From Caballeronia concitans (lineage in GTDB: Bacteria > Pseudomonadota > Gammaproteobacteria > Burkholderiales > Burkholderiaceae): 64,000 bases of DNA. Within the stretch, counting starts at the first letter, position 1. Every line of letters starts with the position of its first letter. Shown in pieces: positions 60,101 through 64,000 of this stretch. Made by a program: the position numbers and the translations under genes. The notes beneath the pieces are model-generated. The model was not told the origin of the DNA, ran no database searches, and saw only the letters and a program-made list of their open reading frames with translations. The stretch covers positions 248,001-312,000 of the forward strand of contig NZ_FCNV02000003.1 in the NCBI RefSeq assembly GCF_001544615.1. The letters run 5' to 3'.

Positions 60101-61505
60101 CGTGGAAATCGTGCGCGCGCGGCTGTCGGCATTCGGGCCGCTGACGGTGGCGGAAATTGCGCGGCCGCTGGCGTTGCCCGCGTCGGCGATTGCGATTGCC
60201 TTGACGCGGCTCGAAAGCGAAGGCTACGTGATGCGCGGCCGCTTCACGCCAGGCTCGATCAGCGCGGAAGAGCAATGGTGCGAGCGGCATCTGCTCGCGC
60301 GCATACATCGATACACCGTGCGGCGGCTGCGGCGCGAAATCGAGCCGGTCGAGCGGCAGGACTTCATGCGTTTTCTGTTCGAATGGCAGCGCGTCGCGCC
60401 CGATGCGCACGGCGAGGGTCGCGATGCGTTGCTTGCCGTGATCGAGCAACTCGAGGGATTCGAAGCGCCCGCCGTCGCGTGGGAAGACGAGATTCTGCCC
60501 GCGCGCATCGCCGATTATTCGGGCATGTGGCTCGACGAAATCTGCCGCGCGGGGAAGATCGTGTGGTCGCGGCCCGCGGGCCGTACGCGCGCGACGGGCG
60601 GACCGGTGCGCGGCACGCCGATCGTGTTGTTGCCGCGTCGAAGGCTCGCGGCGTGGAACGCGCTGATGGCCGCCGACGAAGCGCCCGCGTTGTCATCGCG
60701 CGCGCAACGCGTGTTCGACGCGCTGACGGCGCACGGCGCGATGTTCTTCGACGAACTGCTCGCCGACACGCGGCTTCTGCGCACGGAACTCGAAGACGCG
60801 CTCGGCGAACTCGTCGCGCTCGGGCTCGTCAACGCCGATAGCTTCGCCGGCCTGCGCGCGCTGCTCACGCCGGCGGCGAAACGCAATGCGTGGTCGCGCC
60901 GGTCGCGCCGAGGCTCGGGCGGCCTGTTCATCGGCGGAATGGACGATGCGGGCCGCTGGGCGCTGCTGCGTCGCGCGGGCAATGGAAGCGACGACAGCGG
61001 CGATATCGAGCATGTGGCGCTGACGCTCTTGCGGCGCTACGGCGTCGTGTTCTGGCGGCTCCTGGAGCGCGAGGCGCAGTGGCTGCCGCCGTGGCGCGAT
61101 CTGCTGCGCGTCTATCATCGGCTGGAGGCGCGCGGCGAGATTCGCGGCGGGCGCTTCGTCGCCGGGCTGGCGGGCGAGCAGTTCGCGCTGCCCGAGGCGG
61201 TGCCGCTTCTGCGCGACATGCGCAAGCGGCCGAAGGAGGGCGCGTTCGTCGCGCTGAGCGCGGTCGATCCGCTCAATCTCGTCGGCACGCTCTTGCCCGG
61301 TGAAAAGGTACCCGCGCTGGCGGGCAATCGCGTGCTGTATCTGGATGGCGTGCCCGTGGGCGCGGTGATCGCGGGCAAGACGCGTTATTTCGGCGATATC
61401 GACGGCGACGCGCGCGAACGCATGCGGCTCGCGCTCGTCAAGCGCAGCGGCCGAGCGTCGAGCGTGCCGATGAGCGGCGGCATCGCGGGATTCTCATCGC
61501 GATAA
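57138..61505 (+). CDS. lhr: Large ATP-dependent DNA helicase Lhr
   Basis: This 1455-residue superfamily-2 helicase has Walker A GSGKT (54-58), motif Ia ALSNDI, motif II DEIH (178-181), SATQKP (motif III), the second RecA domain with [15 protein letters not shown] and QRVGRSGHH (motif VI), a winged-helix/beta-barrel region, and the long C-terminal region typical of full-length Lhr. Lhr translocates 3'-to-5' on single-stranded DNA and is linked to DNA repair. It stands alone; no associated metallophosphoesterase gene is adjacent. The ATG at 57138 is the natural start. Confidence 0.93.
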
Positions 61506-61533
61506 ACACGCGCACCGCACGGCACGCAATGAT

Positions 61534-61749
61534 TCATCGCGAAACGATCTTGTTCCGGAACGGCCCCGGCTGCTGCACCGGCACGTCCTTCACCGGCACG
61601 CCGGGATAATCGACGACGCGGTTCGGATTCGACGCCCTGACGCGAAACCACGGATGCGCCGCATCGCGCGCGCCGCCCGCGATCGCCGTCATGGCTTGCC
61701 GGTCGAGTTCGACGCTGTCCGCGAGATCCCTGATCTTGATGACGCTCAT
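61534..61749 (-). CDS. Small peptide precursor with Gly-Gly leader (paralogue C)
   Basis: The 71-residue protein has a 26-residue leader (SVIKIRDL, then ELDRQAMTAIAGG, Gly25-Gly26) that aligns without gaps with those of the two neighbouring genes. The 45-residue remainder (ARDAAHPWFRV, then a Pro/Val-rich part, DYPGVPVKDVPVQQPG) has no cysteine and is unlike the other two cores. A strong AAGGAGC box is 8 bp upstream of the ATG. The leader resembles double-glycine leaders removed by C39 peptidase ABC exporters. The function is unknown. A 14-bp tandem repeat lies upstream. Confidence 0.7.
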   Translation of the reverse strand: MSVIKIRDLADSVELDRQAMTAIAGGARDAAHPWFRVRASNPNRVVDYPGVPVKDVPVQQPGPFRNKIVSR

Positions 61750-61788
61750 GACTGTTGCTCCTTCGTGATCGGAGTCGTGCTGTGGGGC

Positions 61789-61855
61789 ATCGGATCGAGC
61801 TTATCGGATCGAGCTTATCGGATCGAGCTTATCGGATCGAGCTTATCGGATCGAG
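61789..61855. repeat. 14-bp tandem direct repeat, 4.8 copies
   Basis: Four perfect copies of ATCGGATCGAGCTT (61789-61844) and a partial fifth (61845-61855) lie between two leader-peptide genes, about 40 bp upstream of the last one's start. The period is 14 bp with no spacers, so it is a minisatellite rather than a CRISPR. It may be length-variable and alter expression of paralogue C. Confidence 0.85.
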
Positions 61856-61989
61856 TATAGGCAATCCCGGCCGACTCCTCACCGGGACCGCATCGCGGCG
61901 ACGCGCTGAAGCCAAAGGCGGCGAAAGGCCGAAGCCTTTCGCCGCAAACGCCGCGTTCGATCTTCGATGCATCTACTACGGCGCGCGCA

Positions 61990-62250
61990 TCAGAGAAACG
62001 CCGATGCGTTCAGCTTGCCGATCTGCACCGGACTGATGTCGAAGTGCGGCGAGACGCCCGCGCCGACATAGCCGATGTTGCTGAGCGCGGTGACATCGAC
62101 CTTCTGAACCTGCGTGAGGTTCTGAAGGATGCCGACGTTGACTTCCACGTTGGCATACGGTCCGTAGCCTTGCCCGCCGGAGACGGCGGACATCGCGCGA
62201 CGGTCGAGGTCCTTGCTGTGGGACAGGTCCCGGACGATGATGGACGACAT
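61990..62250 (-). CDS. Small peptide precursor with Gly-Gly leader (paralogue B)
   Basis: The 86-residue protein starts with a 26-residue leader (SSIIVRDL, DLDRRAMSAVSGG). The 60-residue core (QGYGPYANVEVNVG, TQVQKVDVTALSNIGYVGAG, ending LNASAFL) is neutral, beta-prone and cysteine-free. GAGGAGC precedes the ATG by about 6 bp. It lies between the other two paralogues on the same strand, with gaps of 36 and 240 bp. The family is not recognised; leader cleavage after Gly26 is inferred. Confidence 0.75.
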   Translation of the reverse strand: MSSIIVRDLSHSKDLDRRAMSAVSGGQGYGPYANVEVNVGILQNLTQVQKVDVTALSNIGYVGAGVSPHFDISPVQIGKLNASAFL

Positions 62251-62286
62251 GGTGGTGCTCCTCGCGTAGCGAATCGTTTTTGCGGT

Positions 62287-62571
62287 TCAGGCCCAGGCCA
62301 GCCCGCCGCCGATGTTGATGTTGCTCGTGTTGCGCGCCGTCTGAACCGGCTTGACCTTCGAGTCGATGTCGTCCGCGAACGCGACATTCGCGCCGTTCTC
62401 GTTGAACGTCTTCTGATCCTGCTGGATCATCTGTTGCGTGTTGAACGAGAGCGAGACCTTCGACATATCGAAGCCCGGCACGAAATAGCTCGAGCCGCCA
62501 CGCACGGCCGACATCGCGCGGCGATCGAGTTCTTCGGTGACGGGCAGGTCCTTGATGGTCAGCGTCTTCAT
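62287..62571 (-). CDS. Small peptide precursor with Gly-Gly leader (paralogue A)
   Basis: The 94-residue protein begins with the leader KTLTIKDL, EELDRRAMSAVRGG (Gly25-Gly26) and a 68-residue core (SSYFVPGFDMSKVSLSFN, a Gln/Asn-rich middle and the hydrophobic end NINIGGGLAWA). No cysteine occurs in leader or core. AAGGAGAACC lies upstream of the ATG at 62571. As the first of three tandem genes it probably heads the operon. Its promoter lies in the gap with the divergent kinase gene. The function is unknown. Confidence 0.75.
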   Translation of the reverse strand: MKTLTIKDLPVTEELDRRAMSAVRGGSSYFVPGFDMSKVSLSFNTQQMIQQDQKTFNENGANVAFADDIDSKVKPVQTARNTSNINIGGGLAWA

Positions 62572-62941
62572 TGCGGTTCTCCTTGAGTGCGCATCGCGCG
62601 TTCGGTGGTGGTGTCGAGCAACTTGTCTGCTCGGGCCAGTTAAACGCATGAGGTATGCCAAGCGCGCGTCTGAACAAACGAAACCGCTTCCGAGCCTTGT
62701 TTCATGGGCTTTTCTGATCGGGAGCGCGTTCAGTTTCATCATCTCGAGTCGATCGGGATGATGCCGCCGGACCAACAGCCCACGCGATCTGTCGGTATCC
62801 GAACGACATGTGCGCGATGCCGCTCATCATCGAAAACGCCATTTGCCTAAGCCGCACGCGAAGGCTAGTATCGAACGAGCACCGGTTGTTTGGTACGACA
62901 AGTGAATTGTCGGTCGATTGGAGCCGCATCGAGTCGCACAG
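62572..62941. other. 370-bp gap between divergent peptide and kinase genes
   Basis: No gene is supported. It must hold the leftward promoter of the peptide genes and the rightward promoter of the kinase. It is AT-richer than average around 62850-62930. No clear operator dyad was identified. Confidence 0.4.
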
Positions 62942-64000
62942 ATGACTAGCTTCCGAGAAGCGCTTCGTCAATATCGGGGCGATGTCGGGTCGCGCGACGC
63001 GTTCTTTGCAGGGGTCGATGGCGCACTGGCCGCCGATCGCACGCCGGGCGCGCGGCTCCTCGACATCCTCGACGAGGAAAACGCGGCAAGGCCCTTGCCG
63101 CCCGATATCTATTCCGCCATTCGCCGGCGCATCGAGCATACGGCGCGCATGCGCTCGGAAACGAACCCCGGCACCACGTTTCATCCGGACCGCGATGAAA
63201 CGCGTCTGCACATGACGCCCGCCGCACCGCCGCCTTTGCCGCCGCGCGCCTTGAGCAGCGCGAGCGTTGGCCCGGACTCAACGGGCGCGACCGGCGCGAC
63301 CGGCGCTACCTCGGGCCAGGCGACGCAAGTGCTTCCCGAAGTGGACCAGATCAAGGGCGTGGGCGATACGCTGAACAATCGCTTCGTGCTCGAAGAATGT
63401 CTCGGCATCGGCGGGATGGGGACCGTCTACAAGGCGCTCGATCTGCGCAAGCTGGAGGCGTCGGACCGGCGCCCGTATGTGGCGATCAAGGTGCTGAACC
63501 TGCAGTTTCGCGGCAATCCGAAGTCGCTGATCGCGCTGCAACGCGAGGCGCGCAAGGCGCAGCAGCTCGCGCATCGCAATATCGTCACGGTGTACGACTT
63601 CGATCGCGACGGGGCCATTGTCTATCTGACGATGGAGTATCTGTCCGGTCAGCCATTGTCCCGGATACTTCGGACACCGAACTTCAAGGGAATGGCGTTT
63701 CCCGAAGTGTTTCGCATCTTCAAGGGCATGGCGACGGCGCTCGCGTATGCGCACGAGCGCGGCTTCGTGCATTGCGACTTCAAGCCTGCCAACGTGTTCG
63801 TCACGGATGCATCGGAAGTGAAGGTCATCGACTTCGGCATCGCGCGCGTGATTCAGCGTCCCGAAGAGGAAACCGAAGCCACCGTGTTCGATCCGGGCAG
63901 CCTGGGCGCGCTGACGCCCGCTTATGCCAGCCCGGAGATGCTCGAACATCGCGAGCCCGATCCGCGCGACGATATCTACGCGCTTGGCTGCATCACGTAC
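62942..64000 (+). CDS. Ser/Thr protein kinase (PknB-like), cut by window end
   Basis: At least 353 residues are visible. An N-terminal region of about 145 residues ends in a Pro-rich (TPAAPPPLPPR) and GAT-repeat linker. The kinase domain follows, with P-loop GIGGMG (155-160), VAIK (K183), the catalytic loop HCDFKPAN (277-284; Asp279, Lys281) and DFG (297-299). It is then truncated after ALGCITY. The residue before the catalytic Asp is Cys, not Arg, so it is a non-RD kinase. It lies divergent from the three Gly-Gly-leader peptide genes. The continuation beyond 64000 may contain a membrane or sensor part. Confidence 0.85.
   Translation, partial: MTSFREALRQYRGDVGSRDAFFAGVDGALAADRTPGARLLDILDEENAARPLPPDIYSAIRRRIEHTARMRSETNPGTTFHPDRDETRLHMTPAAPPPLPPRALSSASVGPDSTGATGATGATSGQATQVLPEVDQIKGVGDTLNNRFVLEECLGIGGMGTVYKALDLRKLEASDRRPYVAIKVLNLQFRGNPKSLIALQREARKAQQLAHRNIVTVYDFDRDGAIVYLTMEYLSGQPLSRILRTPNFKGMAFPEVFRIFKGMATALAYAHERGFVHCDFKPANVFVTDASEVKVIDFGIARVIQRPEEETEATVFDPGSLGALTPAYASPEMLEHREPDPRDDIYALGCITY

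Follow-up and report, generated by a model that had tools for sequence, protein, structure and literature searches.

Three double-glycine leader peptides of Caballeronia concitans and their probable export by a distant C39-peptidase transporter

A 64,000-nucleotide stretch of the 6.17-Mb genome of Caballeronia concitans (positions 248001-312000 of contig C14; "the window" hereafter) carries three small genes on the reverse strand, transcribed in the order P3, P2, P1. The first gene, P3 (62287..62571), encodes 94 amino acids, made up of a 26-residue leader ending in Gly-Gly and an Asn/Gln-rich core of 68 residues. P2 (61990..62250) encodes 86 amino acids with the same length of leader and a 60-residue core, and P1 (61534..61749) encodes 71, with a basic, Pro/Arg-rich core of 45 residues. 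The leaders align without gaps and are identical at D8, L9, L15, D16, R17, A19, M20, A22, G25, and G26. Each ATG is preceded by GGAG at 7-8 bases, and none of the three cores contains a cysteine. The gap-free leaders, their identical positions, the core lengths, the lack of cysteine, and a strong ribosome site for each gene had been described in a first-pass annotation of the sequence, and our open reading frames (ORFs; called with a simple custom ORF picker) and alignment reproduced them. Ten of the 25 leader columns after Met1 are identical, and a chance likeness was rejected because 20,000 within-leader shuffles never gave more than three. Double-glycine leaders carry hydrophobic residues at positions -4, -7, and -12; these were found in all three window leaders as V/I23, M20, and L15. 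P1-P3 are very probably the precursors of a single peptidase-containing ATP-binding cassette (ABC) transporter (PCAT), whose gene lies on the same contig at a distance of about 100 kb, and are very probably expressed from a sigma54-dependent promoter.

Leader homologs were sought with a profile in 299 genomes of the family (cut-off E<=0.001), a search that the first-pass annotation had proposed, and were detected in 109 of them. At the looser cut-off of E<=1, matches were present in 52 of 58 genomes of the genus, although five of the 52 were weak (best E >0.2). Collection gave 224 distinct peptides, of which two with an unknown residue were dropped and 222 were typed: 20 as P1, 19 as P2, 122 as P3, 60 as a fourth type with the same leader (P4), and one as P5. 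The typing patterns were made by hand from motifs in the data. Each of the gene types in the window is conserved across genera. In the alignment of the 20 P1 sequences, M1, I6, D8, L9, L15, D16, A19, M20, G25, and G26 are invariant; the 19 P2 sequences were aligned likewise, and the P3 alignment comprised 87 of the 88 rows of a reduced set. Homologs that always lack the Gly-Gly had been named beforehand as an argument against a double-glycine reading. The motif is kept in 100% of the P1-P3 and 98% of the P4 sequences, a result partly imposed by the search pattern, which demands GG or GR. The P5 peptide (L125:1393-1578) has 61 amino acids and a similar leader, and several listed leader matches with open frames of 66-70 amino acids may belong to the same type.

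The ratio of nonsynonymous to synonymous divergence (dN/dS), calculated from seven sequences of the genus per gene, was 0.10, 0.13, and 0.34 for the leaders of P1, P2, and P3, respectively, and 0.38-0.44 for the cores, which indicates purifying selection and led us to reject decayed genes. Because the leaders recur in the 109 genomes and both leader and core are under purifying selection, P1-P3 are considered to be real genes. Synonymous divergence in the genus triplets was 0.11 in the P3 leader vs 0.29 in the P3 core and 0.36 and 0.26 in the P1 and P2 leaders; a possible cause is gene conversion among the P3 copies. The P1-P3 proteins gave no Pfam or NCBIfam match above cut-off, sub-threshold noise only (PHROGs and PADLOC lay outside the search), and thus matched no curated profile of NHLP/nif11-type or other named precursor families. 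A search of PDB sequences with the P3 profile returned carnobacteriocin B2 as the best match (E 0.55, not significant). Three Caballeronia records in PLSDB match P3, with no feature annotated under the match (in one of the records, which holds two features in all, the two stretches inspected were likewise free of features). A search of open-licence PubMed Central literature found no paper on this betaproteobacterial system, and the earlier suggestion that the family may be undescribed still stands.

The first-pass annotation had seen no export gene in the window, which is correct for an exporter, and had advised looking beyond it for a C39 exporter and an HlyD partner; both were found on contig C14. 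At E<=1 the genome holds six leader matches, all on this contig, three of them in the window and three flanking an exporter locus. The latter are a P4 precursor (C14:409310-409600), detected with the leader profile, and two P3 paralogs (C14:421127-421738) that are 52% and 73% identical to the window P3. P4 is followed by genes for a PP2C phosphatase (C14 ~409679-410446), a sigma54 activator with a Sigma54_activat match (C14:410455-411765), and the ABC transporter (C14:411762-414821, 1019-amino-acid form), which has a Peptidase_C39 domain, two cyclic-nucleotide-binding (cNMP) stretches, and ABC membrane and ATPase domains. Neighboring genes match PpiC, HlyD, FHA, and outer membrane efflux protein, so that a type I secretion set of ABC protein, HlyD adaptor, and outer-membrane channel is encoded together in this genome. 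When the C39 domain was aligned with PDB entries 4ry2 and 4s0f, presumably PCAT1, a Cys, a His, and an Asp that we take to be catalytic were in register. Among the matches listed, the closest named relative of the exporter is from Caballeronia grimmiae (96% in the best segment). Genes for DUF4399 proteins and a caspase-FGE-sulfatase protein adjoin the exporter (L011:1968-5069); the excerpted text of a proteomics paper on Burkholderia thailandensis that names a DUF4399 protein holds nothing on this system (PMC12322963).

In the family, leader and exporter occur together with few exceptions. The cNMP-C39 transporter was detected in 104 of the 299 genomes, all of them among the 109 leader carriers (Fisher p = 3e-75, genomes treated as independent). 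Within the genus, 29 genomes have both, five the peptide only, none the transporter only, and seven neither (Fisher p = 4e-5). Three of the five carriers without the PCAT have another C39 exporter, which bears on an argument raised in advance, that carriers devoid of any C39-type exporter would speak against export. Leader peptides were present in the fetched stretches of 73 of 80 named transporter loci (the best 80 of 315), with 164 matches in all; these loci span Caballeronia, Paraburkholderia, Burkholderia, Cupriavidus, Herbaspirillum, Noviherbaspirillum, Aromatoleum, and others. In the same 80 loci the activator was found in 80, PpiC in 79, PP2C in 73, HlyD in 70, FHA in 70, and the outer-membrane protein in 69, and each of the two DUF4399 queries matched in 64 and the caspase-FGE protein in 63. 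Based on leader pattern, locus, and co-occurrence, the proposal that the peptides are double-glycine precursors for a C39 ABC transporter is strongly supported, and the assignment of the distant PCAT as their exporter is made with high confidence.

The tandem order P3-P2-P1 was kept in 13 of 20 loci from several genera, eight of the 13 being from the window's genus; the remaining seven differ in content, being exporter-side copies or a stretch cut short. The 14 regions from which the triplet loci came had been chosen by eye among the hits, so the 13 of 20 do not represent a random sample. A gene for a Ser/Thr protein kinase with a C-terminal DUF4384 (forward strand, 62942..64000 and on to C14:313083; start codon chosen by comparison with relatives) diverges from the operon, and such a kinase adjoins the triplet in 11 of the 13 loci. 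The distance from triplet to exporter operon is about 1 kb in Aromatoleum (L110, L118) and about 6 kb in Noviherbaspirillum (L094); in two loci of the window's genus (L138, L139) and one of another genus of the family (L140), a few kilobases separate the triplet, the kinase, and the exporter-side genes. Since the triplet is found near the exporter in these relatives, the window operon and its kinase are read as a detached part of one system, and the kinase is proposed to be a regulator of it. In one Aromatoleum locus a gene for a TIR-domain protein adjoins the triplet in the place of the kinase (L110:16861-19062). In a 3.9-Mb draft genome of the same genus (G044; L166/L167), P3-P2-P1 are open and the kinase, HlyD, and FHA genes are present as shorter pieces, as judged from simple ORF calls; in this reduced genome the exporter may be decaying ahead of the precursors.

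A sigma54-type promoter, TTGGCATACCTCATGCGT (GG-N10-GC; score 6 of 8), was identified on the reverse strand at 62644..62661, 75 bases upstream of the P3 start codon, and no sigma70-type promoter was found in 61400-63000. Sites with a score of at least 6 precede 89 of 118 P3 and 57 of 60 P4 genes, 0 of 20 P1 and 0 of 18 P2 genes, vs 3.0% of 3000 control stretches (upstream stretches shorter than 150 bases were left out, which reduced P3 from 122 to 118 and P2 from 19 to 18). On the exporter side of our genome, P4 is preceded by a site that scores 7. Of the two P3 paralogs there, the first has a site scoring 5 at the corresponding position, 72 bases upstream, and the second lacks one. The restriction of these sites to P3 and P4 fits both as first genes of their operons and fits an activator encoded in the exporter operon. 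Further upstream, the dyad TGTCG-N9-CGACA (62790..62808) is the sole match of its kind in the window and is tentatively taken as a site for the sigma54 activator. It occurs 228-263 bases from the start codon before 31 of 118 P3 genes, before 5 of 60 P4 and 0 of 38 P1 or P2 genes, and in 42 of 4000 control stretches (stretches shorter than 350 bases left out). A GC-rich 12-bp hairpin lies on the reverse strand in the gap between P2 and P1 (61918..61945), about 44 bases past the P2 stop. Strong hairpins were found in a similar place in nine of 11 such gaps (the window and eight of ten relatives), with different sequences in L138 and L139; a partial terminator, or an mRNA 3' end separating P3-P2 from P1, is possible. 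The same gap holds 4.8 copies of the 14-bp unit ATCGGATCGAGCTT without a mismatch (61789-61855), and no such repeat was seen in the gaps of the ten relatives.

The first-pass annotation had considered the three cores mutually dissimilar, a conserved leader attached to diversified cargo. This holds for P1, the core of which matched none of the P2, P3, or P4 cores in hhalign. It does not hold for P2 and P3, which gave an hhalign probability of 95; P3-P4 gave 94 and P2-P4 58, and none of 40 column shuffles reached the score. As judged from these profile alignments, the P2, P3, and P4 cores are homologous, so unrelated cargo is unsupported for P2 and P3, and each type is moreover kept across genera. 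The P3 and P2 cores have in common a motif of the form Q..(I/L).Q.QN, after which come a stretch rich in Asn and V.P.Q.A. Asn plus Gln make up 17-21% of the P2, P3, and P4 cores of our genome, more than in any of 105 local ORFs compared (median 5.7%), and 11% of the P1 core. The median net charge is -1 for P2-P4 cores and +6 for P1 cores (n = 20). The absence of cysteine, true of the window, does not extend to all relatives: 11 of 122 P3-type cores have one, and none of the other typed cores does. In the AlphaFold model of P3, a leader helix was assigned to residues 11-24, and residues 41-90 have block means of 68-87 in pLDDT (the confidence score of the model).

Several described systems share parts of this arrangement. 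With three cysteine-free cores and no lanthipeptide-type modifying enzyme among the 10 exporter-locus ORFs scanned with Pfam (one has an FGE-sulfatase domain), the locus does not resemble a lanthipeptide cluster. The published systems below are compared from excerpts of the cited papers. In Synechococcus elongatus, an operon encodes small proteins with a Gly-Gly motif, EbfG1-4, the efficient secretion of which needs the C39-peptidase transporter PteB (PMC4997328); of these, EbfG1-3 form amyloid, and a contribution to the biofilm matrix has been proposed for them (PMC9981879). The likeness, by description and not by sequence, lies in an operon of several small double-glycine proteins combined with a C39 transporter; the present system stands apart through its sigma54 activator, its Ser/Thr kinase, PP2C, and FHA genes, and its precursor types that share a single leader. 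As for amyloid of the EbfG type, the likeness of the present cores is limited to composition and a shared motif, their models having no strands. Cyanobacterial "bacteriocin" clusters of groups I, II, and VI combine a long-type C39 ABC transporter, HlyD, and SurA/rotamase with double-glycine precursors (PMC3140520). The present exporter has the same three parts, whereas no kinase, phosphatase, FHA, or sigma54 parts are described in the excerpt of that paper. HetC of Nostoc PCC 7120 is a PCAT with a C39 domain and, at its N terminus, a cyclic-nucleotide-binding domain for which binding of ppGpp (guanosine tetraphosphate) has been reported (PMC10986499). It shares the cNMP-C39 architecture; according to the excerpt its substrate is unidentified and no double-glycine precursor lies nearby, whereas the present exporter has two cNMP stretches and adjoining candidate substrates. 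A single secretion machine served by a Ser/Thr kinase, a phosphatase, and an FHA protein is known from type VI secretion and its threonine phosphorylation pathway (PMC3953482, PMC3224232). A corresponding association with secretion genes was found here, FHA and PP2C at the exporter and the kinase beside the triplet at the frequencies given above; in contrast to that pathway, the machine is a type I/PCAT exporter, and a role for phosphorylation is suggested by the genes.

Taken together, these observations suggest the following model. The P3-P2-P1 operon would be transcribed from the sigma54-type promoter, RpoN and the activator of the exporter operon switching on the P3 and P4 operons. The 26-residue leader would serve as an address tag for one dedicated PCAT, and the PpiC-type chaperone may hold the precursors unfolded. 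The C39 domain would cut after Gly-Gly, and the cores would leave through HlyD and the outer-membrane channel, with kinase, PP2C, FHA protein, and nucleotide binding by the transporter probably tuning activity. Outside the cell, the P2, P3, and P4 cores would most likely be structural, possibly fibril-forming components of a matrix, with the basic core of P1 as a possible nucleator, anchor, or partner. The structural role is favored because the P2-P4 cores are Asn/Gln-rich, near-uncharged, multi-copy, and conserved, because no conserved immunity ORF was found in the P2-P1 gap, and because EbfG1-3 form amyloid. An extracellular matrix role is nevertheless tentative, and the role of the cores outside the cell is the weakest step of the model.

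A number of observations weigh against this model. Cleavage, export, control by the activator and by phosphorylation, and the extracellular role are steps that we infer, the phosphorylation step from gene neighborhood. Among the 80 exporter stretches the kinase was found in only three, one being a short piece, and it seldom lies within 10 kb of the exporter; its link to the system therefore rests on the triplet loci, eight of which are from one genus. The outer-membrane gene of our genome has no sigma54-type site within 200 bases. The dyad is not present in the exporter-side stretches of our genome (L010, L011), and because its own exporter locus lacks it, the dyad is perhaps not the activator's site and its role is uncertain. 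P1, which a strong hairpin precedes, may be transcribed separately, from a start of its own, or may be less abundant. The predicted structures, with a pLDDT of 66 for P3 and 48.5 (low confidence) for P2, show a leader helix and cores without strands, and a Foldseek search of the PDB with the P3 model found no match.

The co-occurrence has exceptions as well. All five peptide-only genomes of the family (G014, G018, G038, G044, G056) belong to the window's genus, and in G018 and G044 neither the PCAT nor another C39 exporter was detected at the cut-offs used. Leader and transporter were also sought in 368 other genomes of the class, where both were found in G511, the transporter alone in G478 (whose 15.5-kb contig yielded no precursor by pattern), and the leader alone in G520. 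Seven of the 80 named transporter loci showed no leader peptide in the fetched stretch, 10 lacked HlyD, and 11 the outer-membrane protein (six of these 11 stretches being full length). The genome carries a second C39 exporter, discussed below. Finally, the counts of genomes and sequences are not independent, since many come from close relatives.

The role of the cores is open to other explanations. They could be unmodified bacteriocins, released through the same PCAT and lethal to related bacteria. A double-glycine leader, a C39 exporter, and an HlyD-type partner make up the arrangement of class II microcins, which the present system shares, and both the several precursors per genome and the basic charge of the P1 cores suit such a function. 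The present system differs from class II microcins in its kinase, phosphatase, and FHA neighbors, its sigma54-type promoter, cores conserved across genera (at a dN/dS of about 0.4, which is not decisive), and the lack of a conserved immunity ORF in the P2-P1 gap, the only gap examined: no ATG-started same-strand ORF of more than three amino acids was found in the gaps of ten relatives, and the window alone has one, of 47. The near-uncharged, Asn/Gln-rich P2-P4 cores also argue against killing, and bacteriocins are considered unlikely. The exported peptides could instead carry signals between cells, with the producer or its kin as receivers and the DUF4384 kinase, which so often adjoins the precursor operon, as a possible sensor; HetC, a PCAT with a cNMP domain, has been proposed to export a signaling peptide (PMC10986499). 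Cores of 45-70 residues and up to four tandem P3 copies resemble bulk products more, no receptor was identified (no receptor search was made), and we consider a signaling role quite unlikely.

As to the exporter, the window precursors might be served by the second C39 transporter of the genome (C14:179350-181470, within region L173, C14:177152-181470), which has a C39 domain and, by eye, an HlyD-like gene upstream, and which is present in the three PCAT-less carriers mentioned above. This transporter occurs in 35 of the 299 family genomes, that is, in 31 of the 109 leader carriers and in four genomes lacking the peptides, and our pattern found no double-glycine-like ORF alongside it; as the main exporter it was rejected on these grounds, and its export of P1-P3 is very unlikely. 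That the leader is a docking helix, for example for the kinase or the activator, with a coincidental Gly-Gly, is highly improbable given the near-universal Gly-Gly (partly built into the pattern), the double-glycine spacing of hydrophobic residues, and the fact that leader and C39 protein almost always occur together in the family.

Export of P1-P3 by the PCAT thus remains the preferred reading. About one-third of the sampled family genomes carry these precursors, 104 of them together with one matching exporter, and neither a curated family nor a paper was found for them. It is conceivable, although doubtful as a whole, that a type I exporter is here switched like type VI secretion, with kinase, PP2C, FHA protein, and nucleotide sensing by the exporter gating the sigma54-driven release of self-assembling peptides (P2, P3, and P4 as subunits and P1 as partner), as a widespread undescribed matrix system of the Burkholderiaceae. 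If the model is true, the system would offer a clear test of whether Ser/Thr phosphorylation can gate a type I exporter, Caballeronia, Paraburkholderia, and their relatives would gain a dedicated peptide export with unusually rich control genes, and the cyanobacterial theme of double-glycine peptides in biofilms would extend to proteobacteria.

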